NCBI GenBank assembly: GCA_902459845.2
Contig: CABPSV020000061.1
Location: forward strand, 1-37,275
DNA: 37,275 nt
DNA from: Hepatocystis sp. ex Piliocolobus tephrosceles
Taxonomy: Eukaryota > Apicomplexa > Aconoidasida > Haemosporida > Plasmodiidae
Direction of reading: 5' to 3'
The notes below the pieces were generated by a model. That model was not told the origin of the DNA and did no database searches. It saw nothing but the letters and a program-made list of their open reading frames with translations. Of this stretch, positions 4,795 through 37,275 are shown one piece after another. The position numbers were made by a program, and so were the translations under genes. Position 1 is the first letter of the stretch. Each line of letters opens with the position of its first letter.

Positions 4795-7700
4795 TTAAAA
4801 ACATATACGATAATAAAAAGAGAAAATATGTTTGTACACATCATATATGTGTGTCATCATATATACACAATTGTATGTCTGTTGAAACACAATGATAAAC
4901 TTATATATGAACGCATTAACATTACATTCGTTAAAAAAGACATCCAGATAATTAAAGATATTCAAATTATCTGTTCGTATTTGGACAACTGTTGAATGGT
5001 CATAAATTTGAAAAACCATTAAAAAATGGTGCTTAGTTGGTAGGAATATTCCAACGAATTTATTGGTAACATTGTATTTAATACATGTTTTACTATATTT
5101 TTTTTTTATTAAATCATAATTTTTTTTTTGTTTTAAATATTTTTGTTTCTTCGATTTATTTTTGTTTAAATTAAATTTTAAATTTTGATTTATATTTTTT
5201 ATTATTATTTTTTTTTTTCTATTATTTTTTATAATTATATTGTTACTAATATAAAATTTGTAGTTGATCCCTTTTTTATACTTAAATGAGCAAAAATTAT
5301 TATTATTATTATTATCGATTCCCATCGCAAACCCGATTTTACCATTATTCAGTATTTTAGTTTTTTCTTTTTTAAGAAAAGATTCGTTTGTTATTATATT
5401 TGTCTTTTCATTTTTATGCATGTCTGTATACTCACACATATGCTCATATTCATGATCATTACACAAACTTCCTAAACCGGTTTGAAACAACAGATGTAGC
5501 ATTTTCGGTTTGTAGCATTTGTTAAAAAAATTATTTGTTTTGTGTCGATTTTTATTCAAATGTATTTTATTATTTTGGTCTACATTAGTTTCTATATCAG
5601 TGTCGCTTGAATTAATAGAATAGTTGTCTATATAGAACTGATCAGGTAATTTTTTATTAATTTTTTTTTTATTAATATCATAAGCATAATATATATCATT
5701 TAAATTGTAATTTTTCCCTATATACATTTTGTATTTAAAAAAATTATATATGTTTATATTTTTTATTTCAGGTTTTTCATGAATTAAAAATGGATGTAAT
5801 TTTGTTTGAATAATGTTTAAAACTTTACTGGATGTCATATTTAGATATTTAACTGATTTATACATTTTCGAAAATCTTCCATTCCACACATCTTCAAAAA
5901 TATACTTCCAATATTGAGTACTTGCTTTAAATGGTAAAAAAAAATCACTAACATTTAATTTATATTTACCTAAAAATTGTTCAGCAAATTTTTTTTTATT
6001 TTTATTTACATAAACAATATGTGCGATAAATGTGTTACTAACTAATAGTTTAACACTTACTTTTAGCAGTATTTTGTATTTATTTTTGTTTATACTAGAA
6101 TTTTCCTTGTATTTTTGGCCCAAGTTTTGTTTATATGTCTGTTTCCATAACAAAACACTTTTTTTTAATGCATAATACGTTTTTAATGTTTTTTTTTTAA
6201 TTAAATTTTTTTTTAAATCTAAAAAGTTATTGCTATAGTATGTATATTTTTTCTTATTAGCTTTTTTATTTTTTACTTTCCATTGTGATTTCCTTTGTTC
6301 TAAATGGGCCAATTGCTTGGAGCGTTTTTTCTTAAGCAGTCGTTCCTTAAATAGTCGTGTTTTACCATGTTTTATTTTCACACTTTTAAGTAATAAATTC
6401 ATTATTTTTTTTATTTTTACATTTTCTAACATACGACTATATCTATCTATAGAAAATTTGTTTTTTTTTAAAGTAAAATATTTTTTTAATAAATTTGTTT
6501 TTATATTTATTGGTTTAAAACTATCTTGCTTTTTTGTATTTTTTCGAGTATTTATTTTTTTATGGTTAGTCCATTTATTTTTCTCATTACATAATTCAAT
6601 GAACGGAATAAATACGTTATGCATTTTAACAAAATCAGTTTTGTGTGTGATAAAAATATTAAGGGAAAAAAGTTTTTTGTTATTATCACAAGAACTAGTT
6701 TGATCATTATCGCTATATCTAGTTATATTACTCTCACAATTAGTATTATCACATTCGTTACCATTCTTATTCATGTTTGTGTCATTACACCCATCAACGA
6801 CTTTTTTTTGTTTTTCAATTCGATCCTTATTTATTATATAACTTTTACACATATTTATATCTTTTTTTTTTTTTTTTGTATCTACTTCATTAAGCTCGGT
6901 TGTTTTTTTTTTCTTTCTTTTTTTTGAAGACCTCCAATTATAAATTAACAAAAAAGGAATATAAATATAATGTTTATTACTTGTAATGTATTTATAATAT
7001 TTTTTTAAATTGTAAGAACTATCTTTATATATACTGTAAAATGATTTATAGCTAAAGTCGTTTTCATTATAGTATTTATTCAAACAGGATATATCTGAGC
7101 AAGTTTTATCAATATTTTCTTCCTTTTGCATATAAAAAATGGAACAACTATTGTCTTCTAAACCTATAGTGTGTTTTCTGTCAAATTTATAATACTTCAT
7201 TTTTATAATTGTAGAATTTTTTTTTTTACCTGAACGTTTTGATACTCCCTTATTTTTTGTTGGTAATGAAAGTACAGAACCGTATTTTGTTTCTTTATAT
7301 GGTTTTTTATTACTTGTGGCAGATTTTATTGGTAATATATAATTATTTAGGTATATATTTTTTTTTTGCAACTCTATAAATGCAATTTTATTTTGTATAA
7401 AATTAATACTATATACACTAGCCATGTGTAGATAGCCATGGTTATTTTTTTTAATGATTTCTAAAATATATAACATATATTTATAAATATTATTATTATT
7501 ACTATGATTGCTATTATTGTTATTGTGAAGTTGGATGGTATTATTTACCAATGTTAATACCGTCATATATACATTTGTGGGAAATTTGTATTTTTTTAAA
7601 ACTTTACTTAGCATTTTCATTATACCTTTAATATTTGTGTACTCTAATTTTATTAAAAAAAATAAAAACTCTGTAAATTTTATTATATTATATTTTGGGT

Positions 7701-10700
7701 ATATTAAGGTTGTCAGACAAACTAATATATCACTTTCTATTAAATTAAATAGACGTACTTCTTTTTTAAAATATAAATAATAAAGAAAAAATAATAACAC
7801 CTTTAATTCATTCGTATTATATAGTAAATTATATACGATCAAAAATGTTAGCATGTCTTTTTGGTATTTACAGTTGTTGTGATATTTTAATAAATAATAA
7901 ACAAAAAGAAAAAAGTATTTTTTTTTTCCATAAAAATTTTCTTCTGTCGTGATTAAAAAAGAAAAATCGCTTTTTTCATTTATGCCATAAATGTCAACTG
8001 GGTCAGTATATGCGTTAGTTATTGCACATGAAATAGTACCACCATAAGAAATAGTACCACCCTCAGAAATAGACACACCATTTGGAATAGATGAAACAAT
8101 ATCGCTAGCTACATCACTAAATACGATACATGAGTTTTTTTTTTTTTTTAAACACTTTAATATATCATCACGATTGGTAACATTAGGATGTCGGTATAAA
8201 TAGTTTTTTTTTTTAGTTTTAATTATCCGTTTGTTATTAAAAAATGTATCTATATAATACTTTAATTTTATTTCATTTGAAATTAGATCATGTGTTTTTT
8301 TTTTTTTTTTGTTTACTATTACTTGTGTATTTAGAGATACATGCAAAATATTTATTTTTTTATTATCGGTGTTGGTATTACCATTAACACATGTACTGAT
8401 AGTATTGTGTACATCTTTTTTTATAACATGATCTATTTTTTCTAAATTATAACTATTATTATTTGAAATATGTTTTTCTCTGTTCATAGTTACTATTATG
8501 TCATTAAAAAAACAAAGACACTTACTAAACGATTGTACATGTTTACTCGAACCTTGTGTTAATTCATAATCATCATTATATATACATAAATTTTTATACA
8601 TATTTAGTATATTTATACATACATTTTTTTTGTTTTGTATAAATGATAAAACAAAATAATATTTAACAATGGTTAAGTCTTTATTATCAAAAATTGTAGG
8701 GTAATATTGATATATATTTTTTTCACATACATTGTTAATATATTTTTTGGTTAAAAAAAAAACAAATAGATATAATATAATTATTTTACCAATATTTGTA
8801 TAGTTTCCATTTTTAATAATAAATATAATTTTAAAACACATTTCTTCTATTGACACATGAGAAATACTTTTATAAATCATATAAAAATATGTTAAGCTAA
8901 CTGCAAAATGGTAACTATTTTGTTCATATATAAAATAATTATACTTTTTTAACAATTCATTAAATTTTTTTATAAAAAATGGAAACATATAAGAATTAAA
9001 ATAAAATAGTAAATTTATATTTTCCATTACTAAATTTTCTACTTTTTCTTGTATTAAACTGATTAAATTTGTCGGTAAAAATGAGAAATAAGATTGTGAC
9101 CATACATCTTTTGGGGGTATATTTATATGACTGTTTTTATTAGAACAACTGTTTGAACTATTACTAACTCCGTTTTGTATATTATTATATTGATATAACA
9201 AATAAAACATATTCAAGTTTACATAAAATGGTAAGGTAATTAAGCTACCATTAAAATAATAATTTTTTTTAATTAGCTCTAATATATGTGAACATTTACG
9301 AAATTCTAAAAGCTCTAATCTTATATTATTATTTTTTATAAATATATGAATTTTTTTTATTAAGTTTGTTATTTTATTATTTTGTTTTGTATTTATATTC
9401 TCATCATTAATATTGTCTTTGTTTGTATTTTCGCCTCTGTTTGTATTTTCGCCTCTGTTTGTATTTTCGCCTCTGTTTGTATTTTCGCCTCTATTTGTAT
9501 CTTTGCCTCTATTTGTATCTTTGCCTCTGTTTGTATCTTTGCCTCTTTCCATATCTTCACTTCTTTCCATATCTTCGCCTCTTTCCATATCTTCGCCTCT
9601 GTCCATATCTTCGCCTCTGTCCATATCTTCGCCTCTTTCCATATCTTTGCCTCTTTCCATTTCTTCGCCTCTTTCCATATCTTCACCTCTGTCCATATCT
9701 TCGTCTCTGTCTATGTTACTTGTACTACTATTTCTGCTAATATCTGCTATGCAGCTACTGATATTGTTATCTCCCACGTAAGAACCATTATACACAAGTG
9801 GTAAACTTTTGTCACTACTATACATATTATTAGCAGAAAGGATGATGTCACTTTTTATGAATATTTTATCCATTAACGAAAAATACATTAAAATGTTAAC
9901 ATAATTAAATAATATAAACAAATACAGATATGACAATGAATATAAAACTATATCTTTACTGTTGTTACATTGTTTTCTCTTTATATCACAAATTAAAATG
10001 TACAAGTCTATGTTTTTATTTTCTATATACATACCATTTGAATCAATCCATGTATTTTTATTTTGAAAAAAAATATCATAGTGGTCCCTTTTTTGATGAA
10101 ACTGACAAATACTGCTGACTGTTTTGTTGTACACGTCTCCTAATAGACAAGACAAAATCCCTGTATTGGTTAAAAAGTTAAAAAGCTCGTGAATAGTCGT
10201 TTACATACATACGTACATAAGTAACTAAGTAAGCGTATGTATAGCTATATAAGTGAGTATGTAAAAAAAAGGTATACTCTTTTAATAGGTAACACTTAAA
10301 TTTTATAAAATAAATATAATAAAAAGCACAATAAATAAGGGAAAAAAAAAAAAGAAAAAAAAAAAAAAAAGAAAAAAAAAAAAAAAGTACATATACATGT
10401 ACAAAATGGAGATATAAGTGTCGTCATACCTTTGTGAGCATTTTCTATTTCGAAGAGAGACAAAATGGTATAATACCTAAGAATTTGTATTGAAACAAAA
10501 TGATGGAAAAATAGTTTAGTTTTATCTCCCTTTTTATTTTTATCATAAATTTCAATACAACCATAATTAGAATACGGTGAATCCATTTTTATATTATAAT
10601 ATGTTTTTGATTTTTTTTGTAAAAATGTTTTTAAATTATAATCTTTTTTAGTTTGTAATTTATTGATATATGTTTTATATGGATTATAAAAAGTATGTTT

Positions 10701-12539
10701 ATTAATAGTATATATTTTTTCATTATTAAAATATGATAATATATTTGAATTATCTAAATAAAAATAAAATTTGTTATTAAAATTATTTAATATATTGATA
10801 AGAAGTGCTATAAATTTATATACCCATAAATATAAAACCGAATTAAACAAATTAAAAAATAATACAATGTTGGTATAAAGTAATAATAAATGGACCTTTA
10901 TTATTATACTTGTTGATAATGTTTGGAATTTAAGATTATATGTGCGTATATCACTATTATTACTATTATTACTACTATTACTACTATTACTATTATTGTT
11001 ACTACTACAATTTGGAACCAAATTCATAGGTATATATGATACTTTCTTATTAATAAACGTTTTATTAATTATTAATAGTTTTTGCTTTTTTTTATATTTA
11101 TATAATTGTTTTACCTTTTTTTTATTTAGTATATTATATTCTATATATTCCTCCATACTGCTTTTTTTTGTTGGAGATTCTTTTTTTATTTTATTCTTTG
11201 CTGTATGCACAGCTTTTTTGGGGAAGTTTGTTATTGTTTGGTTTGGTTCATGTCCATTTGGTACAGGTTGATTTTTGTAATTTACGTTCATATTTTCGTT
11301 TGCATTAATACATGTATCTGTAATTGCTTGTTTGTCTGTACTTCTACGCGTGTCTATACTTGCGATCACATCCGTCTTTATGATCGTATCTGTAATTTTA
11401 TTTCCACTTTTTAATGAAGTCGTATCATTATAATGTGACGAAAATGAACTTGTACTATCGGTTTCTAACGAATTAAACAATGGTCCTCTGTCTTTTTCAT
11501 GTATCAATTTATTATTTTCTTCATTATATTTTATTACTGATTCATATAAATTTATATATTTTTTTTTTTTAATATATAGGACATTTTGAGCTATATTTGT
11601 ACTTTTATACAGCTTCATAATATTACATAAAAAAAGGTGAAAATAAGAATAAAATTCATATTTTTCGAGAAAATACTGTTCATAACTATTATCATCACTA
11701 GCAAATATATAATTAAAATGAAAAATACTCAAATAAATATTTCTTTTTTCTATATAAATAAAAATATCGTTAATATGATTATTAATACTGTATACATCAG
11801 TAAAATTTTTATTAATAATTTCGTTTATATATTGTCCACTTGTTTCGTTTATATATTGTCCACTTGTTTCGTTTATATATTGTCCACTTGTTTTGTTTAT
11901 ATATTGTCCACTTGTTTCGTTTATATATTGTCCACTTGTTTCGTTTATATATTGTCCAGTTGTTTTGTTTATATATTGTCCACTTGTTTTGTTTATATTC
12001 TGTTTGCATGTTTCTTCTTTTTTTGTAAGAGGTTTCCATGTTTTACTCTGTTCTGTTTTGGTAAAAAAACTATTATTTTGTTTATGGTCATTCTGATAGA
12101 TATGTTTATAACCAATATTATAACTGTTATTATGAATGTTATTATTATTTTTATTTTTTATACCTGTTGTTGTACTAAAATTATTTGGAATAACATTAAC
12201 ATTATCATTGCTAATGATGAAAGTATTTTCGAAATTTGTTTGTTTTTTTATTTGGTTAAAATTATAATATACTCCTTCATTATTCAATATAAGGTCAATT
12301 ATGAATAATATTTTTTGAATATTATGAAATGATAATATAAAAATGTTGTTTAAAATATAATTAATATTTTTAATAATTATGTTATCTATTATTTTATTTT
12401 TGAAATACTTTTTATTTAATTCGCTATTAATAATAATTAGAGATAAAATGTTATAAATTATTATTTCTATAAGTTCATCATCTAGTTTTCTTTTTTTTCT
12501 TTTTTTTTTTAACTTATTACTTTTCTCAATTTCTTTCAT
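4795..12539 (-). CDS. Gene X copy A: large protein of unknown function (2491 aa, two exons)
   Basis: Exon 1 is 12539-10430 and exon 2 is 10160-4795. The intron 10429-10161 has GTATGA at its 5' end and AATACAG at its 3' end. Joining completes one Gly codon and gives 7476 nt without a stop. Exon 2 alone has no ATG at its head (its open frame begins at TTG), so the splice is needed. Visible parts: Lys-rich N-terminus; hydrophobic helical stretches; seven 8-aa SGQYIN repeats at about 184-240; Ser/Asn run near 510-530; sixteen or so 6-aa RGEDME/RGKDTN repeats at about 853-950; long Leu/Ile/Tyr-rich helical region; a strongly basic region; and a C-terminal part with alternating beta-type hydrophobics (TQYWKYIFEDVW near residue 2120). 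A helical solenoid followed by a beta-rich tail faintly recalls large subunits of clathrin-adaptor (AP) complexes, but this is only a guess and I do not recognise the family. It diverges from the 12691 gene with a gap of 151 nt. Confidence 0.8.
9425..9712 (-). repeat. 18-nt coding tandem repeat (RGEDME type), copy A
   Basis: About sixteen units of 18 nt encode six-residue repeats. DRGEDM and ERGEDM units come first, then NRGKDT and NRGENT units. Sequence homogeneity is high, so the array is prone to slippage. The same array in the inverted copy is where the window ends. Confidence 0.9.
10161..10429 (-). other. Intron of gene X copy A
   Basis: A 269-nt GT-AG intron with a long pyrimidine tract broken by two C residues (T15 C T16 C T12 on the coding strand). 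The matching intron in copy B is 268 nt and has only one C in the tract. Confidence 0.8.
11821..11988 (-). repeat. 24-nt coding repeat (SGQYIN), seven units, copy A
   Basis: Seven exact-length 24-nt units encode the octapeptide N(K/E)T(S/T)GQYI. Copy B carries only four units at 34806-34901. The frame is kept in both. Confidence 0.92.
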
Positions 12540-12570
12540 TATTCTCTTGTCTTTATCTTGTCTTGGTCTT

Positions 12571-12621
<51 letters not shown>

Positions 12622-12690: not shown

Positions 12691-15600
12691 ATGAGTTCAC
12701 AAGATGGCAATACCCATTTAAACACCGTGTATCAAGAATTTAATACATTAAACCAATTTTTAAAAGAACTAAATGATAAGATAAAGACAGGTAATAATGA
12801 TAACTACACCTATATATATGACAGTTGTCTAGAGAAGGTAGATAACATGCATAATAAATACTATACTTGGTCACACAATGAAGAAGATTTAAATGATGAG
12901 TATATGGAATACCTATTACTTAAGTTTGTTATAAATATAAAATCATTTTTAAGAAACAATTTTTTAAATATTGATGAAAGTTTAAATGCCTTAAAAAATA
13001 GAAATAAAAAATTAATGGAGAAATTAAAAACGGGATTGGAAAATGCAGAAAATCAAGAAAACTATATAGAAGAGTTAGAGAAGAGTTTACAAATTGAAAA
13101 AGATAAAAATAGGAATAATAAAAATTTAGTTGAAGAAATAAATAATTTGAAAACAGAAAATAAAAAATTGAAAAATATAAATAAACAATTAGAATTAGTT
13201 TCATTGAAACAAATGAACGAAAATAATAAAATAAAAAATAAATTAGATAAACATTTGGTAAATGAAGAAGAAAAAAAAAATAAAATAAAAAATATAAAAA
13301 AAAAAAATAAAAAAACATATTTATATAACGTTAATAATGATAAAAATAACTGTAATGATATTTATGATGCCACTAGTGACAATTGTGACAACTGTGATGG
13401 CAAAAAAAAATCTTATAATATATTAAATAAAAGTATGAGTGTTTTACTTAAAGAAATTAATTCAAATTTCCAAAATAGTAAACAAGATAACTTTTTATGG
13501 AATACAAAAAGAAGCTATAGTTATAATTTTTTAGACACCATTAAAAGTACCATGTTAAGTGAAGTAACTACAGCACGTAATGGGTGCTTCAGTTATAGCC
13601 AAACTATGAATGAACACACTAACAATGGACACACTAGCAGTGAAAACATTAGCAGTGAAAACACTAGCAATGAAAACACTAGCAATGAAAACACTAGCAA
13701 TGAAAACACTAGTAATGAACTGAATAGTGATAATCTATTTAAACGAATAAGTAACAGTACAACTAGTTTAATAAAATATAATAATGTTATTCAAAACCAG
13801 CAAATACAAAAATATGAAACGCTCGATCGTTATTTTAATGATTTTAATACATCTTTAGTTAAAGAAAACATAAAAAAAAAAACAAATAATGACAACTACA
13901 GTGATCATAAAACTGTTAATAAAAAAAATAATAAAAATAGTGATAATAGTAATGTTGATGAATTCACTCATGTGCGTAATAATAATAATGTTGTATGTTC
14001 AAATATAGAAATAACAAATAAAAAGATTAATGCAGTTGCAAAGGATAGAAATGAAAAATCGAGTAAATGTAAAACTAGTATTAAAAAAATTGACGATGTA
14101 CATAAATATCGTATTATCCATAGAAGTAACTCAAATTTCAGTAACACGAAGTTGCTTACGGATGTAAAGAAAACACTAAGTAATATATTCAAGTGAAGAA
14201 TGTAAAATTACAATATTATATAAAAAATACAAACCATTTTACTTGTTTATTTATTTAGTTAGTAGTTTATTATAAGAAAGTTTCCAAAAGCAATAAAATG
14301 CTAGTGCATAAATAAATAATTATACGTACTTATATATAAACAAATATGTATACATACATACATACATATATATATATATATTTTTTTTTTATAGGAATTA
14401 ATCGAACCTTTTTAATGAACAATATTCTCAAAAAACAAATGCAAAAATATGAAAAGAAAAAAAAAGGGAAGCGCAGAACCCTATTCAAATATCAAGTAAA
14501 TAGTTTTATATTATATTATGTATTGGTTATGTACTTTATTTTTTTACTTTATATATGTTACAAAATTAATATCTTTTAAAACTAATTGTAGCATAAATAT
14601 GATTGAATGAACCAAAAAGAAACCATAAAATCACATTGTTTTAATGATAAATAAAAGCACAACTTGATGAATCAATGTATTTATATATATTAATTAGCAT
14701 ACTAACACATATGTACATATAATCATATATACATATGTGTATATGTATATATATTTACTGTTGCAATTTTTTACTAGATAATATAATACACCACTCCAAC
14801 GAAATGGTTGTCCATACTATACATATCATTGCGTGACAATATCATAAAAAAAACAAACGAACAAGTACTATTTTTCTTTTTATATATTATTCAAGCATGC
14901 ATATATTTATATATATGTACTATTTTTTGTCTTTTATTATTTAAATTAACACATATTATGAAAATATTAATTCATAATAACACACATACTTTTTAAAAAT
15001 ACCATACTGACCTTTTCAAATAATCATAACTCTTTTAATGTTTTAAACATGTACACAATGTACATATATATATATACATATGTACATATGTAAGTATTTA
15101 AAATTTTTTTTTTTTTTTTGTATACACACATATTAATATAATTTAATATTGTTATTTTTAATGAAGAATATTTTTATGTCTACTATAATTATATTCTGTG
15201 TTTTTGTTCTGTTAACGCTTTTTATAGTACTCTTTAAAATATATTTTTTTGATTTTTCTTTTTTTTTAAACCATTCTACATCTTACATTTCTCCTAGCTT
15301 TAAAAAACAATATATATATTATACTTTTGTAACTAAAAAATAAAAGAATTCTGCATATTATTTCTTACTAGGCATGTTAATATAAGTGTATATATATATA
15401 TGTATGCTTATGTATATATGAACATATTAACCTATTTTTATTTCAATTTTTTAGAAAAGTAAAATTAGTTCAGAGATTGAAAATGGTGGTTGTGAACTGC
15501 ATGTCATAAACAACATGATAATAGTATGGTTACGTATATACATATGTATACATATTCGAAAATGTGTTTATTAATATATATATATATTTGTGTGCGAAAA

Positions 15601-19992: not shown

Positions 19993-21003
19993 ATGAAAAA
20001 CAAATATTCAGAAAGAAAAAAGTATTCAATCCACAACTTGGTAAAATACATAAATGAACAGAAAAAAGGAAATTCCAAACAAACTGATCAATCAGAATTT
20101 AATTGTAATGAAACAGAAAATACTTTTGAACAAAGTGAAGAAAAAAATAATAGTAAAGTGAAAAAAAATAAAAACACAAAAAAAGAAGATAATGTTATTA
20201 ATAAGACGAATGATGATATATATTGCAAAATACTTAATAAAAAAGAAAAAAACAAGTTTGATAACTACAATGGCAATGAAGTCACACATGCTCAAGATGT
20301 AGATGGTGATGATGAGCATGATAACGTACGTGCTAGCGAATGTGATGTACTACAAGGTAGTGGGAGTGACATTCTTCAAGAGTGTACAAATTACTATAGC
20401 GACAATATGGACATAACACAAAACAATACGAATGAAATAAAATTATTTATGATTGATTATCATGAATGTCAAAATAAAAAATGTTCTTGTAAAAAATTGT
20501 ATCGTTTTAAAAAAATAAAAAGAGTTCAAACAAATAAAAAATTTAAAGGTATAGTTTTAACTCCCTTTTGTGATAAATATTTTTCTATTAACGACAAAAA
20601 CATTATTGAAACACATGGTTTGTCAGTTATTGATTGTTCTTGGAAGTCTATAGACTTAATAAAAAAGGTCAAATATTCAAACCAAAGAAAATTACCATAT
20701 ATAATTGCAGTTAATAGCATAAATTATGGAAAACCATATAAACTATCATGTTTAGAATCATTAGCTTTCTGTTTATATATATGTAATTATAATAAACAAT
20801 GTATTGACATATTAAATATTTACAAATGGAGTATTAATTTTATAAATGTAAACAAGGAACTATTAGAAAAATATAAATTATGTTCAAATCATGACCAAAT
20901 TAAAAATGCAGAAAACGATTTTTTAACTAATTTACGTAATGAAAGAGAGGAAAAAAAAAAAACGGACCAGTATGCAGTTATATACGAGGACGATTATATA
21001 TGA
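19993..21003 (+). CDS. TSR3: 18S rRNA aminocarboxypropyltransferase (TSR3)
   Basis: Single exon, 336 aa. TSR3 enzymes transfer the aminocarboxypropyl group of S-adenosylmethionine to a modified uridine of small-subunit rRNA late in 40S maturation. The N-terminal 145 residues are a parasite-type low-complexity extension (Lys, Asn, Asp). The family core follows in order: DYHECQNKKCSCKKL at about 155-169 (family DHxxCxxKKCxGKKL), VLTPFCDKYFSIND at 188-201, the DCSW motif at 214-217, LPYIIAVNSINYGKPYKLSC at 234-253 followed by LESLAFCLYI, and IYKWSINFINVNKELLEKY at 276-294. The core is complete. The protein ends in an acidic tail (YEDDYI). The start is the first ATG after stop-rich AT leader sequence. 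It is convergent with the CWF19-like gene, with 303 nt between stop codons. Confidence 0.93.
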   Translation: MKNKYSERKKYSIHNLVKYINEQKKGNSKQTDQSEFNCNETENTFEQSEEKNNSKVKKNKNTKKEDNVINKTNDDIYCKILNKKEKNKFDNYNGNEVTHAQDVDGDDEHDNVRASECDVLQGSGSDILQECTNYYSDNMDITQNNTNEIKLFMIDYHECQNKKCSCKKLYRFKKIKRVQTNKKFKGIVLTPFCDKYFSINDKNIIETHGLSVIDCSWKSIDLIKKVKYSNQRKLPYIIAVNSINYGKPYKLSCLESLAFCLYICNYNKQCIDILNIYKWSINFINVNKELLEKYKLCSNHDQIKNAENDFLTNLRNEREEKKKTDQYAVIYEDDYI

Positions 21004-21306: not shown

Positions 21307-22851
21307 CTACACATAATTTGTCCAATCATATTTGACATAAGCGCTTTTAAATTGTTCTACCGTATCTACATATTTTTGAAAATTTCGAAAGTACTTATAA
21401 AGTTTATCTTTTTTAAAAAGGTCTGTAAAAATACATTGACACATGTTTATATAATTATAATTATTTTCTATAACTTGTATATATGTTTCACCTAGTGCAA
21501 AATTAATAGATACATAAGGTATATTTTTAGGTATAATATTATATGGTGCATATTTATTTGTAGTAATCATTAATTGTTTATTTTCTCTATATAAAGAATT
21601 TATATCTTGAATATTTTTTTTAAAATAAAGTTTCGCTGTTTCTAGTAACTCAACGGGTATAACATAACAATTAATATATGTATGTTTCGCTTTTCGCGTA
21701 AATACCAACTCTATACTTTTATTAAAACAGTTATTAAATTCAATAAATATACATGTTTCATTAGATGCTTCTAACATTGCTATTAATGATTTCATATGGT
21801 TCCTTATATCTTCAATTGTTTCAATATCTGTATTAGTTACACTTGTGGTATGTTTTATAGGAGATATAAATAATTGTTTTTTTAAAAATATATTTTTATA
21901 ATTATAATAACATATATATGACTTTTCACTAATGCTTATAATATTTAATTTGTTCAATTTGGAAAAGGAGTTAGAATCTAGGCAATATTTACAATCTACT
22001 AAATTTTTATTTAACGCATTTTTTAAAAGTATTTCTTGTTTTTTTTCACTAATCCTTTTTTCTATTTTTTCTGTTAATTTGGTCGTATTTGAAGGGCAAG
22101 TTAATTCTGGCGGGCTAGGAGAGGAATTACTGCTTTTTTCATCACTATTTTTTTCTATGTTAATCTTTTTCTTTTGTTTGTCTCTTTTTTGTTCGTGTTC
22201 GTATCCTTTTTCGTACTCATACTCTTTTTCGTGCTTATACCCTTTTTCGTGTTTGTTTTTTACTTTTCTATCCGTTTCTTCCAACTCGAGCGTTTTTCGT
22301 CGTTTTTGTTTGTGCCGCTCCTCTTGTCTGTGTTCCCTATCATATTTGTTTAGTTCACTTTTTGTTTGATTTTTTTTCTTATCTTCATGTTTTGCATCAT
22401 CCCTGCGTTTTTTTTTTTCTTTTTCATATGAAGACGTAGAACTGCTACTACCATATCCTTCGTTTAATGAAGGACCCTGTTTAGTTAAAGAATTATGTGA
22501 GAGTCTTACTCCTTTATTTTTTATTGATTCTTTATATTTATGTTTTAATAAAAATTTTTTATATTTTACATCATAACATTCTTTATCATTTATTTCATCA
22601 TTTTTTAATTCACGTATAGATGAAGTAATATCTTCCCCATTCATCCCTTTTATTCTACTTACTCTGTTTTTATTATCACATTTTTTATTATCACATTTTT
22701 TATTATCACATTTTATTATATTTAAATTACTATTATTACTGTCATTGTTGTTGCTACTATTGGTGCTACTATTTTTATTATTATTATTTTTTAAAAAATT
22801 TAAAAAATTATTTTTTGCAAATTCATAAAAATCGTCAGTAGTATTACTCAT
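21307..22851 (-). CDS. CWF19-like protein (CwfJ domains), spliceosome-associated
   Basis: Single exon, 514 aa. CWF19/CwfJ proteins associate with the late spliceosome and the lariat-debranching machinery. The first 280 residues are low complexity: Asn/Ser run, three CDNKK units near 48-62, then a charged Lys/Glu/His region with HEKGYKHEKEYEYEKGY near 201-217. The C-terminal half carries the family core. DCKYCLDS at 286-293 is the conserved Cys pair of CwfJ domain 1; LFISPIKHTTSV at 327-338 and CIFIEFN at 367-373 follow, then KHTYINCYVIPVEL at 389-402 in the HIT-like position. CwfJ domain 2 spans about 410-514, including YVSINFALGETYIQVIEN and the C-terminal FKSAYVKYDWTNYV. The length is near that of the smaller family members. 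The gene lies downstream of, and convergent with, TSR3. Confidence 0.88.
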   Translation of the reverse strand: MSNTTDDFYEFAKNNFLNFLKNNNNKNSSTNSSNNNDSNNSNLNIIKCDNKKCDNKKCDNKNRVSRIKGMNGEDITSSIRELKNDEINDKECYDVKYKKFLLKHKYKESIKNKGVRLSHNSLTKQGPSLNEGYGSSSSTSSYEKEKKKRRDDAKHEDKKKNQTKSELNKYDREHRQEERHKQKRRKTLELEETDRKVKNKHEKGYKHEKEYEYEKGYEHEQKRDKQKKKINIEKNSDEKSSNSSPSPPELTCPSNTTKLTEKIEKRISEKKQEILLKNALNKNLVDCKYCLDSNSFSKLNKLNIISISEKSYICYYNYKNIFLKKQLFISPIKHTTSVTNTDIETIEDIRNHMKSLIAMLEASNETCIFIEFNNCFNKSIELVFTRKAKHTYINCYVIPVELLETAKLYFKKNIQDINSLYRENKQLMITTNKYAPYNIIPKNIPYVSINFALGETYIQVIENNYNYINMCQCIFTDLFKKDKLYKYFRNFQKYVDTVEQFKSAYVKYDWTNYV

Positions 22852-24054: not shown

Positions 24055-24948
24055 CTAATTATTATCATCCAAATCGCTTGCATTTATTTGAAAGTGCTGA
24101 AAGAAAAAAAAAAAAAGATAAAAATAAAAAAACAGTTTAATGTTAAAATATTGAGAAAAAAATATTATTTTAAAAAATAATATGTAAAGTGGGTGTTAGT
24201 TGAAACATTGTTACACCGTAGTATAGTATAAAGTATCTCATGTTTAGCAATATATTTACGAATGTATGTATGGCTGCGTGTGTTTTTTTTTTTCCCTCTT
24301 ACATTAATAAATGGGTTATTATTAGATTTAATCCATTTATTAGATTCTCTTTTGGACATTTCTAAAATTGACTTTTTAATTTTGTCGGGGAACTGTACTA
24401 TGTCGCCTAAAATTTTAAAAGGAAAAAAAAAAAATATATATATATTAAAAAATGCAAAATGTTACAAAAGTATGTAGTCACATTATTATGGTACACATAT
24501 ATATATATATATATATATTGTTTATATGATTATAAAAAACATGTGTTCACTAATTTATTACCTGTTGGTGTAACATATTCCAATTTTTTGTTAAACACAG
24601 GTACTGTGTATTCACTCATTGTTGCATTTACTATGGATAAACTATTTTTATTATAACTACAGTTGATTTTTTTTATGTTATAATGAGATGGTTTGAAATA
24701 TTTAAACATATATAATGACGGATTTAATAATTTTATATTTTCACACACCTTTGGTTCTTCATACTGAACCTGTGATGTTTTCTCAGTGTCTTGTTCTACT
24801 TTTTTTTTTTGGAAAATGTTAAAAGACATAAATTTATTTTGTTCTATTACATTTTCTTTTTCATCGCTTAAAATTTCAACTGACCTAAATCCATACAAGT
24901 ACAGGTTGTTCATCAAAATCTGAAACATGTTTAAAAAAAAAAGGGAAA

Positions 24949-24979
<31 letters not shown>

Positions 24980-27900
24980 AAATTAAGAAGGCATAGCACA
25001 ACATATGTCTTCGATCAATTTGTAAAACAAGGCAAAAAAAAAAAAAAATAAAATAAATAGTAAAATAATAAAAATACACTCCCATTTTAGTTTTATTTCG
25101 AATGTAACTTTTTTACTTTTTTTTTTTTAATTTTTTTTTTTTTGCGAAAATAGAATTTACCAAAACTTCATCCAAGTCGCAGCAGATATCTATGGGAGTT
25201 ATATCGTTCCATAAGTCATTATGAACAGGTGATGGAGTAGGTATATATATCTTTTTTGTCTGTGCATTATTATTATCATCTTCATTATTATTATTACTGT
25301 CTTTAATTTGTTCTGCATTTTTATTTTTCTGACCAAGTTTTATTCCAAATTTATTAGATATATTATTAGAACTTCTACCGAATAATGTATTACCACTATC
25401 AGTACTATTTCTTATAGCAGTTATACGAGAAAACTTTCCCCACATATATAAAGAGTATTTAATAGTAGAAGTAGTATTAGGGTCAGTTATGAAACATGCA
25501 AAATTATCAGAACATACAATTTTGTTAACTTTTATATTTTGTGATATATTAGTTAAAGGATAACAAGATACTTCATCAAGATTTTTCAATTTATCTTTAT
25601 GTACTCCTAATATACATTTGTAATTACTACCCCATACATATAATGTGTTTCTGTTAGTTTGTAGGCATATATTAAAATAATCCATACATAAAATAGTTTG
25701 AATTTCGAATAATAGAAATTGTGGCGTATATATATTTTGCTTAAAATATTTTAAATTAATAAAAAAAAAATTACCACTTATATATAAATGATTTTCTGTA
25801 GTAATATATGCACTATGATATGATGCACATTTTATATTTTGTATATTTATATTGTTTTTTAAAAAGTATTTAATTATTTTAGGGTATCTAATTATTTTTT
25901 TTTCAAATGGTTGACCACATTGTCCAAAGTTATTATTTCCCCAAGAATATACATTACCATTTTCAGTAATTGCTAGTGAATGTTCTGAACCACAAGATAT
26001 ATTTATAACTTTATTTGTTTCATTTATTATTTTACTAAATACAACTACTTTTTTAAGCTTACCTTTTTTATCTTCAGTTTCTTTTATTTTATAATCATAA
26101 ATGCCATTTATCGTATGGTCTCGATTGAATGAAGAAAAACGTTTTTTTTCTATAGTATATTTGTATTTATATTCGAATATTAAATGTTGTGGTCTGTTAT
26201 TATTTTTTTTATATAATCTATGGTTGTTATTTTTTTGGATCAGTTCTTTAGTACTTCCGATGGATTCATTGTTACTAAGTGATGTATGGGTGTTAAGGAC
26301 GTCCCCTCCATTAGTACTACTGTCTACATTAGTACTTCTGTCTACATTAGTACTACTACCACCACTAATACTACCACCGTCATTATGTCCACACTGTTTA
26401 CTCTCTTTATTTTGTTCACCCAATTGCATACCTTTTTTAACAACCTGATTATCTTCTTTCCCTTTCAAAGTAGTTCCCCCATTACTCAACTGTTTTGTTT
26501 TGTTTTTTTCACTCTGACTTTCGTCATTGTCAATAATATTTTTAAGTAATGTATCATTATCTGAGTGATTTTGTCTATTTGATGTGCTTACGCTTTCTTT
26601 ATAAGTCTGTTCGTTAGAATCACTATCACTGTATTGTGTTTTTATTTTATTCCAATATTTATCCCTTTCTGAAGTAAACGCATTATAAGCATTGTTAGTA
26701 AAATTTTTCTCAAATAAATTATAGTAACCTAACTGCCCTTTATCATTAGATCCTATACTATACACAAATTTTAAGTAATTTCTTGAATTTTGATTATTAT
26801 TCTGAATAGATAACATTTGGTCTTTACATACATATTGATTAATCAAAAGAATAGTATGAGTTCTTCCTACAAATATTTCAATGGATTCAAACAGAGGTAC
26901 ATTAAACATATTTGTTTTGGCCATAGAATCACCTTCTTGAAACATGTGTCTCATATAAATAAATTTAAGTATGTTATTAATTTGATAAGCCCAGGGAAGT
27001 GTATTGTAGTGATATGATATATTTTTATATAACTTAAGATTAAAGACAATATTAAATAAATGATTTTTATAATTTAATTTATTATGATAAAAAAAATACC
27101 ATTGTTTTAATAATATATCATACGTTAATAATTTCATTGCATTTTTTTCTTTTAAAATATAGTAATTATAATTCGGAAAATTATTTTTTGTTAAAAAAAA
27201 ATATTTTTCTCTATCATATACACTATTAGTACACAAATTTAATGGGACTTTATTTAAAATCATTTTTAATTTAGACATATTTTTCCACCATCTTTGAATT
27301 TGAATAATACTTTTTTTCATTTCATTGTATTTAAATCGTTCGATACAAGTTTGTACATACGCTTGAGTAAAATAAACAGCATTTATTAACATATTATATT
27401 GTTTTTTTACAACATACTGTTTGTATTTGCTTTGTATTTTAATCACTGCTTGAAGAATTTTAAATTGATTTTGTAATACATTTTTTTTAAATACCTTTTT
27501 CTTAAAATTCTGGTAAGTTATTTGGGTAGCAATTTTATCATATGTTTTATATTTTCTTTTGATAGAAAGAAAACAAATTTTTAAAAATAACTTTTGTTGC
27601 AAATTTTTTATACAAATATATTTTCGAAAAGCGCATTGTATTATCGTTGCACATTTGTTAGGTAAAATTACATCGTTCAAATTTTCTAGCATTTTTTTTT
27701 GTATTAAAAATGTTTTTATAACCATATTAATTTTGTTTATAGCTTCTTTTTTTAATATTTCCAATTTCATTTGTTTATATTTTCTCATTTGGATTACTTT
27801 TCTAAACCATGATTGTATAAAAACACAAGCAGCATGTTTTATTATTTTCTTTTCTTTTTGTATAAATCTTTCTTTATACATGTCTAACGTTTCTCTTTTT

Positions 27901-30900
27901 CCATCGGTACTTTTATTTTTTACAATATAGTTATAAAAAATAATAAATGAAAGTAATTGATTCTTTAGTTTTTCCATTTTGTTATAATTTTCATAGAATA
28001 AAATCTTTCTCATATAATTTTGCATAATAATAATTTTATCTTTATAAAAGAATTTTAATTTTTTATTTCTGTAAGATATATAACTATTTTCAATTTTTCG
28101 AATACATGGTAGTACTAATTTCACAAATTCACATTTCAATATTTCTAAAATAAAATATACATATTTTTTTATAAAAATATAATTTTGAAAATAAAATACA
28201 TCTTTTGATATACAAAAATGTAGTAAAATAAGTTTACATAAATTTACTTTCTCTTCAAAAGAAATATATTTTAAAAAATGGAGTATTTTTTTTTTTTTCT
28301 TCTTTTTTCGTATAGTTTCTCGCTTTGTTATATTTAAACTATGTTGTTGGTTGTTTAAACTATGTTGTTGGGTGTTTAAAAAAGAAAGTCTCTTATTTTG
28401 TGAAGAACTAGTACTAACTAACAAACTTCTGCTATTGTCTTTTTGTTTTTCTTCATCATGACTACTAAAATTACTCCAATGTCGACAATTGGGATATTCT
28501 AAATGATCACTAAACATACTGTTACTTTTTTTTGGTTTTTCTGTTTTTGTTTTTGTGCTTTCTTTTTCTTTATATTTTTTGTAATATTCTTCGTATCCAT
28601 TTATCAAATCTCTTAACTCTTGATTTTTGCTATAGTGAAGACAGAATGTTAAATAATTAGTAATAAATTCATCACAGGTTAAACTATAATATATGTATTG
28701 TAATTGGTAATTAAAAAATATTTTTAAATAGAACCAAGCAAAAACTAATTCGATATGTTGTTTGTTTAAATTCTTTTTTAACTCATTGTAATCGTATAGC
28801 CGTACAGTTGGTGTAAAAAAGGAATATAACCAATTAATTTTTTTTTTATTTTTTGCTGAATCATAGGATGATAGTAAATGTTGAATGGGTAAATTAAGAG
28901 AGAGTGATTTTTTCCTCTCGTTTTTTCCACTTTGTTTGTTAAAGTGGCTGTTGCTACTATCACTTTGTTCAATACTTAAGTTTAAAGGCGAATCAGAAAC
29001 GTTGTTATTATTTAAATATTTTACAATATATTTGGGACATTCCATATTTTTTTTTTTTTTTTTCCTTTCTTTTTCATTTACGATTAAAATATAAAATTTT
29101 TCATAACTATTTTTTACAGCATTTAAAAAAAAATGTATTTCTTCATATAAAAAATCATGTTTAAAAATTCGTAATAAAATAGTTTTATCAAAGAATAAAT
29201 TTTTTAAAAATGTCATTTTACTTTTTCCAATCACATGGATAACATCATTTAATACGTAGCAATCTTTTATGTTCTCTGTAATCATTTTATTATACTTATA
29301 TTTTAACGTTTTTTTATTATAATGAGTTATACAAAAAGTTGATGTGGAAGAATGTTTTGTCTGGTTTGGGTTATTATTATTATTATTATTATTTTTATTT
29401 TTTTTTTTATTATAAATGTTGTAGTTGCTGTACTTATCACTACCGTACTTACCACCACTGTATTTATTACTATTACTATTATATTTTTCCAGTTTTTTAT
29501 TTTTGTTTACATCTTTTATAAACTTTTTTAAAGTTGTTTTAACAAAATCATGTAAGTTGTTATCTTCTTTAACAAAATTATCTTCCACCATTTTCATATT
29601 ACCTTTTTTTAAAACCCTATTTGCAATAATCATGTTATTTTGACAAATATCTTCGTTAAGATAATGTTCGTCCCAATTATTTATATTTCTACCTTTTATA
29701 TGTGTGTCATTATAATATTGTGTTATTGTTTTCATTAGAAGTAAAAATATATGCATCATTTTGTTATACTCCTTTTTTATTAATATGCCTGGTTTTTCAT
29801 CTGATTTATTTTTAAAATTGGACTTCCAGCTTATCTCATCATTATATTTTTCAAGAATGTTTAAATACTTATATGTATATTTTCTTAATAAATAAAAAAT
29901 CCCGTTTTTATTTAAAAAATAAATACATTCACTGTTCAAACTCCTTTGTAAAATATTTGTATAAAATGCTTTAAATTTTTTAAGAATATTAGAAGCATAT
30001 TTATCATAATTTTTATTCTCACTTAATCTTTGTAAAGCGTGAGTGGTTAATACGTTAATATCAAAAAAGAACATTTTTAAATAGTAAGACTGTAATACCT
30101 CATTGTATATGTTATTATAAAATTCTAACAAAGAGTTATTGTTGCTGTGGTTGTTTTTGCCGCTTTTACTGTTTTTGCCACTTTTAAGGTTTTTTCCGCT
30201 TTTGCTATTTTTGCCACTTTTTCTATTTTCACTACTTCCATCGCTACTACCTCCTTTACTACTACCTCCCTTACTACTACTTCCCTTACTACTACTTCTC
30301 TTACTACTACTTCCCTTACTACTACTTCCCTTACTACTACTTCCCTTACTACTACCTCCCTTACTACTAACCACATTGTCGATTCTGTTCATTAGTCCAC
30401 TATTACAATACACATAAATAGAATACATGACTGGTATGTTTTTGAAACTATTTTTTAAGCATCTATTTACTTGTTTAATTATTTTAATTTTTAAGCGAAA
30501 AAAAATAGTAGTACACAAATTTTTTAATTTTATTGTATTGTTTAAAATAGTTAAAAATATATGTAAATTTATATCTAATAAATATGATATATATTCTTCT
30601 AAAATATGACCAGCAAAAACAATAAAACATGTAGAAATACCTTTTTTTATTTTTACAATTTTATAATCATGTCTTTTGCTTTTTGTTTTCAGATTTTCAG
30701 TTTTTTTGGATGTGTCACGATTCTTGTTGTTACGATCATTTTTCTGTTTCGTCACATTTTTATTACAGTCACTTATATCGTCTGTTTCTTCCATAAAAAC
30801 TGGACTTAATTCATCACTCATAAAATCATCGTAATTAAAATTTAATAAATTATACACATGGCCAGTTTTTTCATTTGTTATACTATTTTCACTTTCGTAC

Positions 30901-33037
30901 ATTTCATATACATTTCTTATTTTTAAATAATCTTCTATTGGCATTAATTCTATATCCAAAATACGTAACGTTTTTTTTTTATCTATATTTAAGCATGTTC
31001 TTATATTAATATATATATTTATATATATAATAGCTAATACAATCCGAGTTATACATTTTATATCTTCATTTGTAAAACCTATTCTTAAAAAATTATCAAA
31101 CGTTTTTTTTATTTCTGAAGTTTTAATATTTTCATTTATGCATGGATTATGTATATAATTCCTATATATCTTTGCAACATCCAATGGATGCAATTTTAAA
31201 TCTTTATAAAATTCATTTTGACTATTTGTTAACGCACTTTTTAAAAGAAAAAGAAAAATGTAAGGAATATTAATAAATTGTTGTTTAAATATATCGTTAT
31301 AAGTTACTTTATTCTTTTTTTTATCACTACCACTGTTCCTGCCATTGCTACTGCCACTACTACCACCACTACTACCACCACTACTACCACCACTACTACC
31401 ACCACTACTATTACCACTACTACCACCACTACTATTACCACTACTACCACCACTACTACCACCACTACTATTACCACTACCCGTTCTCGAAACCTTATAT
31501 TTAGTGCGTATGTTCAAACGCCTGTAAACATCAACAAATTTTGTACATATATTTGTTACATTGAATGTATCTATAAAAGAACAAGGGATGACAAAAAAAT
31601 ATATTATTTCATTTTCATTAGACATATACATTATAAAATTATAAATTTTATAATTATAAAATAAATTAAGAACCTTTATAATGCTTTTATACAGAGAATA
31701 TAACTTTTTGTTATTGCTTTTTTTTATCATATGTTTTAATACGTATGCATTTATTTCGTACTGATTACTATATTGTTCACCATATATAAATAACATTTTA
31801 TTCTCATTTTTTATATTATGTGCTATATGTTTATTTAAAATATTTAATGTATTATTCTGTGTGTTCTCCCTTTTATTATCATTACCACTACTATAAGTGT
31901 ACATATCATTATTTGGGTTTTTACTTTGTATATCCAAATTTATTTTATTATTGTAATTTGACATATTATCATCATTAATATATCCGCTATGATTAAAAGA
32001 AGAAACATTATTAATATTACCATTTTCTTCTATTTCAATATTATATAATAAATGAAAATTAACTCTAAATTTTCTTGACATAATTTTATCTATTTCGAAT
32101 ATTTCATTGTTACTTTTAGTAAATAAAGTGTTTCTCACAGATCTTATATTAATACTTTTTTTTTTTTTTTTTTTATAATCAAACATGTCTTTTTTATTAT
32201 AATGTAGTTTATTATGCATAGGATAACTAGATGTTATGCTTTTTTTATATTTATATGGGTATTTAAAAGATAAATCATAAAAATTATCAGAAGTATTCTT
32301 ACTAATACCATTTTCTTTTAAACTATATTTTGTTACATAATTTATAAATGAATCAAATATATAATTATTTTTATTTTTTTTTTTTAATAACAATTTGTAA
32401 AATTCTTTCAAATTATTATCTGGATTAATCATAATCAGAATATTATTAAATATACTTAGGTAAATGTTATCATAGTACCTCATTAAAATTTTATCACTAA
32501 CACTTGACTCTTCCTTGTATATGTAATAAAGGTCATGGATATTACTATCATGATTGTAACTATAGAAAATAAAAAAAAAAAATGGAAAAAATAAAACGCA
32601 CGCGTAAGTGGCAGTATTGTGTTCGTAAAATGTGGACATATATATGTATATATATGTACGCATGAGCAAATTCATATATTCACATGTGTGCATTTTTTTA
32701 TCAAATTGTACCTGTTGGTATTTACATCATAAATATTTAACAGAGCGTACTTTTTTTCAAAAGAATCATTATTATATGATGAAATTAAATTAATATTTTT
32801 TATATCCAAATCCTTTTTCATCTTATATTTTTTATTAGCATAACCATCATTCAATTTCAAGTTTTCCACAACAGGATATGATTTGTTATTCGAATCTGAT
32901 TGTGTATGCATATTGGCAGTTTTTTTCGATTTAAAAAAAATAAACGGAACCACATTGTCATTATTTTCAAAATCTGCATAATCTCTTTTTGTTTTCTCAT
33001 CGAGATTTAAAATGTCTAAATTTCTTTGAAGCGTTGG

Positions 33038-33040
<3 letters not shown>
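24055..33040 (-). CDS. Divergent myosin-like protein with IQ motifs and C-terminal RCC1 propeller (2743 aa, five exons)
   Basis: Exons 33040-32712, 32559-25161, 24919-24562, 24406-24303 and 24096-24055. Donors begin GTACAA, GTAAAT, GTAATA and GTAAGA. All phases fit and the sum is 8232 nt. Myosin-head traces: VSDKILMRYYDNIYLSIFNN plus ILIMINPDNN at about 130-158 (motor N-terminus); KMLFIYGEQYSNQYE at about 364-378 where the P-loop GESGAGKT belongs; LLEFYNNIYNEVLQSYYLKM (relay-like helix); and VFYFQNYIFIKKYVYFILE (end of head). Switch I and switch II signatures are not visible. Two Gly/Ser-rich inserts break the head (about 480-530 and 840-890). IQ-like motifs lie at about 1680-1870 (FIQSWFRKVIQMRKYKQ, IIQCAFRKYICIKN, IQSKYKQYVVKKQ, IQRWWKN). 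RCC1 blades follow from about 1995 (SIGSNDKGQLG, SCGSEHSLAITENG, VYSWGNNNFGQCG, YVWGSNYKCILG). Class is uncertain; it may match an apicomplexan myosin such as MyoK or MyoJ. Probably calmodulin-binding and cytoskeletal. Confidence 0.78.
24920..25160 (-). other. Intron 2 of the myosin-like gene, splitting an RCC1 blade
   Basis: A 241-nt GT-AG intron (GTAAAT at the 5' end, ATGTTTCAG at the 3' end), phase 0. Without it the open frame runs on to 25113 through a poly-Lys end. With it, ICCDLDEVL joins ILMNNLYLYGFRSVE. That matches the ISCGSEHSLAITENGNVYSWG pattern of an RCC1 blade and so supports the join. Confidence 0.75.
30147..30375 (-). repeat. Coding repeats: SSKG and SGKN types
   Basis: Two adjacent arrays on the coding strand encode SSKGS/SSKGG pentapeptides (15-nt units, about 30243-30375) and then SGKN(S/L)K hexapeptides (about 30147-30230). 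They form an insert in the myosin-like head. The minus strand is purine-rich, and G+C content is far above the surroundings. Confidence 0.88.
31330..31485 (-). repeat. Coding repeat: GGSS type, 12-nt units
   Basis: About a dozen units of GGT/AGT codons (plus strand ACCACCACTACT) encode GGSS/GNSS. The array is an insert in the myosin-like head, after the degenerate P-loop region. Confidence 0.9.
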
Positions 33041-34128: not shown

Positions 34129-34223
<95 letters not shown>

Positions 34224-34254
34224 AAGACCAAGACAAGATAAAGACAAGAGAATA
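33041..34254. other. Intergenic region between myosin-like gene and gene X copy B
   Basis: Contains T and A homopolymers (33041-33068, 33421-33438, 33717-33745), (AT)n near 33150-33177 and a compound poly(A) tract at 34134-34222 broken by GGC at 34173-34175. Open frames such as 33838-34038 are AT-rich and start in stop-rich DNA. No gene is supported. The inverted duplication starts at the poly(A) tract on the right. Confidence 0.7.
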
Positions 34255-36332
34255 ATGAAAGAAATTGAGAAAAGTAATAAGTTAAAAAAAAAAAGAAAAA
34301 AAAGAAAACTAGATGATGAACTTATAGAAATAATAATTTATAACATTTTATCTCTAATTATTATTAATAGCGAATTAAATAAAAAGTATTTCAAAAATAA
34401 AATAATAGATAACATAATTATTAAAAATATTAATTATATTTTAAACAACATTTTTATATTATCATTTCATAATATTCAAAAAATATTATTCATAATTGAC
34501 CTTATATTGAATAATGAAGGAGTATATTATAATTTTAACCAAATAAAAAAACAAACAAATTTCGAAAATACTTTCATCATTAGCAATGATAATGTTAATG
34601 TTATTCCAAATAATTTTAGTACAACAACAGGTATAAAAAATAAAAATAATAATAACATTCATAATAACAGTTATAATATTGGTTATAAACATATCTATCA
34701 GAATGACCATAAACAAAATAATAGTTTTTTTACCAAAACAGAACAGAGTAAAACATGGAAACCTCTTACAAAAAAAGAAGAAACATGCAAACAGAATATA
34801 AACAAAACAAGTGGACAATATATAAACAAAACAACTGGACAATATATAAACGAAACAAGTGGACAATATATAAACGAAACAAGTGGACAATATATAAACG
34901 AAATTATTAATAAAAATTTTACTGATGTATACAGTATTAATAATCATATTAACGATATTTTTATTTATATAGAAAAAAGAAATATTTATTTGAGTATTTT
35001 TCATTTTAATTATATATTTGCTAGTGATGATAATAGTTATGAACAGTATTTTCTCGAAAAATATGAATTTTATTCTTATTTTCACCTTTTTTTATGTAAT
35101 ATTATGAAGCTGTATAAAAGTACAAATATAGCTCAAAATGTCCTATATATTAAAAAAAAAAAATATATAAATTTATATGAATCAGTAATAAAATATAATG
35201 AAGAAAATAATAAATTGATACATGAAAAAGACAGAGGACCATTGTTTAATTCGTTAGAAACCGATAGTACAAGTTCATTTTCGTCACATTATAATGATAC
35301 GACTTCATTAAAAAGTGGAAATAAAATTACAGATACGATCATAAAGACGGATGTGATCGCAAGTATAGACACGCGTAGAAGTACAGACAAACAAGCAATT
35401 ACAGATACATGTATTAATGCAAACGAAAATATGAACGTAAATTACAAAAATCAACCTGTACCAAATGGACATGAACCAAACCAAACAATAACAAACTTCC
35501 CCAAAAAAGCTGTGCATACAGCAAAGAATAAAATAAAAAAAGAATCTCCAACAAAAAAAAGCAGTATGGAGGAATATATAGAATATAATATACTAAATAA
35601 AAAAAAGGTAAAACAATTATATAAATATAAAAAAAAGCAAAAACTATTAATAATTAATAAAACGTTTATTAATAAGAAAGTATCATATATACCTATGAAT
35701 TTGGTTCCAAATTGTAGTAGTAACAATAATAGTAATAGTAGTAATAGTAGTAATAATAGTAATAATAGTGATATACGCACATATAATCTTAAATTCCAAA
35801 CATTATCAACAAGTATAATAATAAAGGTCCATTTATTATTACTTTATACCAACATTGTATTATTTTTTAATTTGTTTAATTCGGTTTTATATTTATGGGT
35901 ATATAAATTTATAGCACTTCTTATCAATATATTAAATAATTTTAATAACAAATTTTATTTTTATTTAGATAATTCAAATATATTATCATATTTTAATAAT
36001 GAAAAAATATATACTATTAATAAACATACTTTTTATAATCCATATAAAACATATATCAATAAATTACAAACTAAAAAAGATTATAATTTAAAAACATTTT
36101 TACAAAAAAAATCAAAAACATATTATAATATAAAAATGGATTCACCGTATTCTAATTATGGTTGTATTGAAATTTATGATAAAAATAAAAAGGGAGATAA
36201 AACTAAACTATTTTTCCATCATTTTGTTTCAATACAAATTCTTAGGTATTATACCATTTTGTCTCTCTTCGAAATAGAAAATGCTCACAAAGGTATGACG
36301 ACACTTATATCTCCATTTTGTACATGTATATG

Positions 36333-36366
<34 letters not shown>

Positions 36367-37275
36367 CTTTTTTTTTTTTCCCTTATTTATTGTGCTTTTT
36401 ATTATATTTATTTTATAAAATTTAAGTGTTACCTATTAAAAGAGTATACCTTTTTTTTACATACTCACTTATATAGCTATACATACGCTTACTTAGTTAC
36501 TTATGTACGTATGTATGTAAACGACTATTCACGAGCTTTTTAACTTTTTAACCAATACAGGGATTTTGTCTTGTCTATTAGGAGACGTGTACAACAAAAC
36601 AGTCAGCAGTATTTGTCAGTTTCATCAAAAAAGGGACCACTATGATATTTTTTTTCAAAATAAAAATACATGGATTGATTCAAATGGTATGTATATAGAA
36701 AATAAAAACATAGACTTGTACATTTTAATTTGTGATATAAAGAGAAAACAATGTAACAACAGTAAAGATATAGTTTTATATTCATTGTCATATCTGTATT
36801 TGTTTATATTATTTAATTATGTTAACATTTTAATGTATTTTTCGTTAATGGATAAAATATTCATAAAAAGTGACATCATCCTTTCTGCTAATAATATGTA
36901 TAGTAGTGACAAAAGTTTACCACTTGTGTATAATGGTTCTTACGTGGGAGATAACAATATCAGTAGCTGCATAGCAGATATTAGCAGAAATAGTAGTACA
37001 AGTAACATAGACAGAGACGAAGATATGGACAGAGGTGAAGATATGGAAAGAGGCGAAGAAATGGAAAGAGGCAAAGATATGGAAAGAGGCGAAGATATGG
37101 ACAGAGGCGAAGATATGGACAGAGGCGAAGATATGGAAAGAGGCGAAGATATGGAAAGAAGTGAAGATATGGAAAGAGGCAAAGATACAAACAGAGGCAA
37201 AGATACAAATAGAGGCAAAGATACAAATAGAGGCGAAAATACAAACAGAGGCGAAAATACAAACAGAGGCGAAAA
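34255..37275 (+). CDS. Gene X copy B, cut by the window end
   Basis: Exon 1 is 34255-36292 and exon 2 starts at 36561 and runs to the end of the window in frame. The intron 36293-36560 uses the same GTATGA and AATACAG sites as copy A. At least 917 residues are encoded here. The protein equals copy A in the parts compared, except that it has four instead of seven SGQYIN octapeptides. If the intron were not spliced, the frame would run into poly-Phe and stop at 36543, which is clearly wrong. The window stops inside the six-residue RGEN(T)N repeats. The 5' neighbourhood differs from copy A: here 1.2 kb of intergenic DNA and the myosin-like gene lie upstream, divergent, instead of the coiled-coil gene. 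Whether this copy exists in the genome or is an assembly product cannot be told from the window. Confidence 0.75.
34806..34901 (+). repeat. 24-nt coding repeat (SGQYIN), four units, copy B
   Basis: Four 24-nt units, against seven in copy A at 11821-11988. It is the only length difference above 1 nt between the two copies of the coding region. Confidence 0.92.
37014..37275 (+). repeat. 18-nt coding tandem repeat (RGEDME type), copy B, truncated by window end
   Basis: Same order of unit variants as copy A (9425-9712, read in reverse). The window ends within the NRGENT units. Confidence 0.9.

Follow-up and report, generated by a model that had tools for sequence, protein, structure and literature searches.

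The inverted pair and its limits

The 37,275-nt stretch of Hepatocystis DNA analyzed here (the window), which constitutes a whole contig referred to below as C59, contains what appears to be the same block of sequence twice, in opposite orientations and far apart. This raises the question of whether the parasite carries a genuine inverted duplication or whether the contig was wrongly joined, and, if so, which of the two joins is false. When the window was compared with itself by BLAST, the inverted pair was the strongest match besides that of the window to itself, consisting of two segments of 2481 and 728 nt at 99.9% identity, and the similarity is far beyond chance. In a pairwise alignment of bases 9400-12800 with the reversed bases 34000-37275, the region 34176-37275 matches the reverse complement of 9446-12618 with no mismatches, the match falling into three stretches of 925, 1451 and 724 nt that are interrupted by gaps at 10371 (1 nt) and 11823 (72 nt, or 3 × 24). 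A GC dinucleotide follows the homopolymer run at the junction in both copies and the similarity stops there, at 12621 and 34174. The original prediction, which had described 34174-37275 as the reverse complement of 9446-12621 flanking 21.5 kb, is thus accurate as to the ends and also as to the spacing, which was computed as 21,552 nt.

The two copies were further predicted to differ only in three 24-nt repeat units and an intron homopolymer. Both differences are found, and a third has to be added. The 24-nt repeat has seven units in the left copy and four in the terminal one, and the left copy has an extra C (gene strand) within a T-run of the intron, which in the terminal copy is an unbroken T31; since the run is interrupted by the C, this is an inserted base and not a change of run length. 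The third difference lies in the junction run itself, which is T48 at 12572-12619 in the left copy and A47 at 34176-34222 in the terminal copy. One edge of the duplicated block accordingly lies in a poly(A) tract, while the other is cut by the contig end at 37275 within an 18-nt tandem repeat, and the second end of the block is never seen because the contig stops there.

Table 1 Features of the window, with coordinates, strand and the basis of each assignment.
Feature	Position	Strand	Basis or remark
PRP17 (CDC40-type WD40 splicing factor)	2110..4050	+	Best seven chains are Prp17 or an unnamed homologue, E 5.8e-66 or lower
Gene X, AP5B1-like, two exons	4795..12539	-	ORFs 10296-12539 and 4795-10155; AP5B1_C; orthologues span both exons
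18-nt tandem repeat, exon 2 of X	9413..9714	.	Contig end cuts the terminal copy within it
Left copy of the block	9446..12621	-	5′ part of gene X; runs on leftward into the rest of the gene
24-nt tandem repeat, exon 1 of X	11819..11998	.	7 units here, 4 in the terminal copy
T48 + GC tract, join judged false	12572..12621	.	Run coordinates, sequence
501-aa candidate ORF, unknown family	12691..14196	+	151 nt from the X start codon
TSR3-type ribosome biogenesis protein	19993..21003	+	PF04034 147.6 bits, plus PF04068
CwfJ-domain protein (Drn1/CWF19-like)	21307..22851	-	PF04677 53.3 bits, PF04676 35.5 bits
RCC1/IQ 'cell cycle associated protein' gene	24303..33040	-	RCC1 and IQ domains; orthologue alignments cover 32561 to 24303
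A42-GGC-A47 tract upstream of the terminal copy, join judged true	34131..34222	.	Run coordinates, sequence
Terminal copy of the block	34174..37275	+	Adjoins RCC1 as in relatives; cut by the contig end

Gene X and its neighbors

The duplicated block was originally taken to be a complete gene, here called gene X. The two ORFs of gene X belong to one gene because relatives match both of them: the P. cynomolgi protein PCYB_144600 does so, and so do seven longer relatives (2,127-2,263 aa) from P. ovale (two), P. gonderi, P. yoelii, P. vivax, P. inui and P. gallinaceum, whose alignments start at 12.48 kb at the highest and in five of the seven reach approximately 4.92 kb. The C-terminus of gene X contains a domain of the AP-5 beta subunit family, AP5B1_C, which scores 32.6 bits in Pfam against a curated cut-off of 21.9, and all seven of the longer relatives (seven records, six species) carry this domain as well, PF21590 being listed for each. 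The block itself comprises exon 1 and the intron and reaches into the first part of exon 2, and matches of the relatives within the terminal copy end near residue 740. As most of exon 2 is lacking, the 3.1-kb "gene" amounts to no more than the 5′ third of the full gene, which is about 7.6 kb long, and it is broken off by the contig end; the AP5B1_C domain is present in the gene of the left copy, and the terminal copy ends before reaching it. Most of the relatives are named merely "conserved, unknown function" or "hypothetical". When viral contigs were searched, no relatives of X came up, and the only match of a literature search for AP5B1 with Plasmodium concerned sarcoidosis.

Among the other reading frames, no Pfam family matches the 501-aa ORF at E ≤ 0.1, so that its start codon is uncertain. 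The ORF at 32672-33040 is likely the first exon of the RCC1/IQ gene, with the qualification that the first ~90 residues of the relatives have no clear match. Tandem repeats also occur at 23287-23651, 30231-30369 and 31342-31480, the last two of them within the RCC1/IQ reading frame.

Gene order in related parasites

In the window as assembled, PRP17 and X are followed by the 501-aa ORF, then by TSR3, CwfJ and RCC1, and then by X again. In P. falciparum the identifier numbers of genes run along the chromosome, and consecutive locus tags in P. inui mark neighboring genes. The CwfJ protein is presumably the debranching-enzyme-associated one of P. falciparum. An HP1-type chromo domain gene, which we take to lie near 1220900, would be a possible outer neighbor of the segment between the copies, and a search for such a domain gave one match, in a 3,379-aa frame of contig C480.

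In the parts of the literature consulted, the P. falciparum identifiers are assigned as follows: 1220100 is PRP17 (PMC4456382), 1220300 the cell cycle associated protein (PMC5071865), 1220400 the debranching enzyme-associated ribonuclease (PMC8277430) and 1220500 TSR3 (PMC8844926). When 1220200 and the range 1220400 to 1220800 were looked up in the literature, a single paper was found, for 1220400, and none that names 1220200. We infer that gene X corresponds to 1220200, which would make the P. falciparum order PRP17, X, RCC1, CwfJ and TSR3. In P. inui, X is C922_00747 and the RCC1/IQ gene is C922_00748, and the contig given for each of them measures 1,716,297 nt. The X and RCC1 genes of P. 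gonderi and of P. gallinaceum are likewise listed with contigs of equal size, whereas in P. vivax, the fourth species present in both lists, the contigs differ (3,726,833 and 3,153,402 nt), a mismatch that may reflect different assemblies behind the two figures and that nevertheless counts against the reading preferred below.

The adjacency of X and RCC1 in the P. inui locus tags and the P. falciparum identifiers places the terminal copy in the ancestral position. Relative to that order the segment between the copies is reversed in the contig as assembled, a layout that would be expected from a misjoin as well as from an inversion. The spacing of the genes differs between the two joins. The terminal X lies head-to-head with RCC1 at a distance of 1,214 nt, if the ORF at 32672-33040 is indeed the first exon of RCC1, while only 151 nt separate the start codons of the left X and the 501-aa ORF; the median spacing given for head-to-head genes of P. 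falciparum in the portion of the source consulted is 1,938 bp (PMC3681616). The doubtful join had implicitly been placed at about 33.9 kb, and the gene order of the relatives moves it to 12.57-12.62 kb.

The junction tract and redundancy in the assembly

On the opposite strand, the tract at the left join reads as GC followed by 48 A. In the whole assembly, a draft of 611 contigs and 12.39 Mb, GC followed by A40 occurs 136 times (61 + 75 on the two strands) and the reversed control, A40-CG, 76 times (36 + 40); the 136 include four that come from the present locus, namely two sites in C59 and their duplicates in contig C68. Common as the string is, most such sites are without a known misjoin, which counts against attributing a misjoin to it. 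By a self-set cut-off, complexity was low at 15 of 34 unmasked contig ends, compared with 17 of 567 stretches taken from within the window.

Contig C68, of 34,253 nt, is a prefix of the window that agrees exactly with bases 1-34253; it contains the left join, and its last 78 nt belong to the terminal copy. The window was searched against the assembly with simple repeats skipped, using the stretches 400-2300, 4300-9420, 9440-12700, 12620-14300, 14300-22900, 24200-32500 and 32500-34120. Besides the terminal X, full-length matches of these seven stretches were found in C59 and C68 only, among at most 40 candidates scored per search. A further copy of X was not encountered within the same limit, as 9440-12700 and 4300-9420 both match C59 and C68 alone.

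Other contigs of the assembly are also redundant or in conflict. Tags were taken from 20 contigs; five tags were masked, and one of the 15 others had a second exact place. This tag pointed to contig C500, which has 13,277 bases and lies within C393; all 10,777 of its unmasked bases are identical there. Contig C492, which ends in a poly(T) run, is identical to C441 in the two stretches compared, of 3,000 and 3,498 nt, and is probably nested in it. Finally, C7 and C393 have 2.1 kb in common at 99.6% identity (3 mismatches, 4 gaps) and diverge upstream of a poly(T) tract; because they part there, one of the two joins must be wrong, unless two haplotypes are mixed. By eye, a gene in C393 seems to be cut within an intron at the poly(T) join of that contig. 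A tag from C69, near 2.2 kb, has a 93% match in C2 near 8.0 kb, which could represent a gene family or a haplotype.

A probable misjoin at the left copy

Taken together, we conclude with high confidence that the inverted pair arose during assembly, with a false join at 12.57-12.62 kb and a true one at 34.17 kb. Gene X would then most likely be single-copy in the genome, located between PRP17 and the RCC1/IQ gene. Of the two readings originally offered, a recent duplication and a misassembly, it is therefore the latter that is favored. First, the position of X beside RCC1 in the relatives conflicts with the left join, which in addition sets two start codons much closer together than is typical of head-to-head genes in P. 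falciparum. Next, the left join falls in a string that is repeated throughout the assembly, and the edges of the block are a homopolymer on one side and, on the other, a contig end within a tandem repeat. Finally, X is found in C59 and C68 only (at most 40 candidates scored), and the C68 prefix is accompanied by other faults of this type in the assembly: the nesting of C500 in C393, the agreement of C492 with C441 in the stretches compared and the conflict between C7 and C393. Certain observations point the other way. The three indels between the copies imply that one copy was not simply duplicated from a single string, and the same left join is present in C68, although C68 is not independent of C59.

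The assembler may have left PRP17, traversed X in reverse and reached the poly(T) tract that lies upstream of X, and from there could have hopped, via the GC-poly(A) string repeated genome-wide, to the far end of the adjoining 21.5-kb segment. The segment would then have been read to its true end at RCC1, where X was entered again through the correct join, and the second pass through X would have halted in the tandem repeat of the gene. A step trusting overlaps shorter than about 49 nt could move between GC-poly(A) sites in this manner. The end of C68, with its 78 nt common to the opposite strand of X, is what would be expected from a k-mer graph with k = 79 at a branch where two paths enter X. 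As k = 79 by itself would also need reads over the false join, an earlier short-overlap step or chimeric reads have to be supposed. The layout resembles a chimeric contig formed at a low-complexity repeat, given the junction in a string repeated 136 times, the nested contigs and the end in a tandem repeat; in the present case the faulty step itself would be deduced.

Alternative explanations

The principal alternative, which we regard as improbable, is that this haemosporidian very recently underwent a genuine inversion of about 21.5 kb through staggered breaks, one of them in poly(A), and that the 5′ part of X was thereby left in inverted copies at both ends of the segment; the breaks would be placed at X and beyond the 501-aa ORF. 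The layout fits such an event well, as X is whole beside PRP17, the segment is reversed and a partial X is still joined to RCC1. Inverted duplications at inversion breakpoints have been described in Drosophila, at least in the portion of the source consulted (PMC5080602), where, as here, part of the neighboring sequence stands in inverted copies on either side of a reversed segment. Here, however, the inverted copies at both segment ends are present in the contig as assembled only, and the case differs from the Drosophila inversions (PMC5080602) in that a single new junction is seen, that this breakpoint lies in a repeated homopolymer and that the copies show no substitution. The absence of any mismatch in 3.1 kb argues against a real inversion, as does the new junction in a string present 136 times. 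Furthermore, only the 12.6-kb junction is seen, the contig stops before the second, no other contig with X appears among at most 40 candidates scored, and elsewhere the assembly contains nested contigs as well as two contigs that disagree at a poly(T) join. For the suggestion that the inverted pair could flip the intervening 21.5 kb by recombination, nothing was found in support.

An even smaller chance is given to the opposite misassembly, in which the left join is true and the terminal copy was wrongly added. It would account for C68 stopping 78 nt into the terminal copy without the rest of it, and for the terminal tail finishing in a repeat, but the ancestral neighbor of X, its orientation and a plausible spacing would then have had to arise by chance, and a fixed inversion would be required in addition. 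The terminal copy had been the first candidate for a wrongly added piece, on account of the C68 prefix, and that idea was overturned by the gene order in the relatives. Least credible of all is a mixed sample of parasites with both orientations of the segment, strung together by the assembler, for although the copies differ in repeat number and the few changes between C7 and C393 over 2.1 kb could represent two haplotypes, C59 equals C68 over 34,253 nt, and the stretches 400-2300, 12620-14300 and 32500-34120 are fully matched in C59 and C68 only (at most 40 candidates scored), so that no contig with the other outer join is seen.

Implications

With the left join most probably false, it would be a mistake to read the regions 1-12.57 kb and 12.62-34.17 kb as neighbors in their present orientation, and gene X is to be counted once. 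Before any rearrangement or duplication is deduced from this assembly, joins that run through long poly(A) ought to be verified. Should the inversion nevertheless be true, the locus would represent a fresh case of inversion-breakpoint duplication in a malaria-type parasite.
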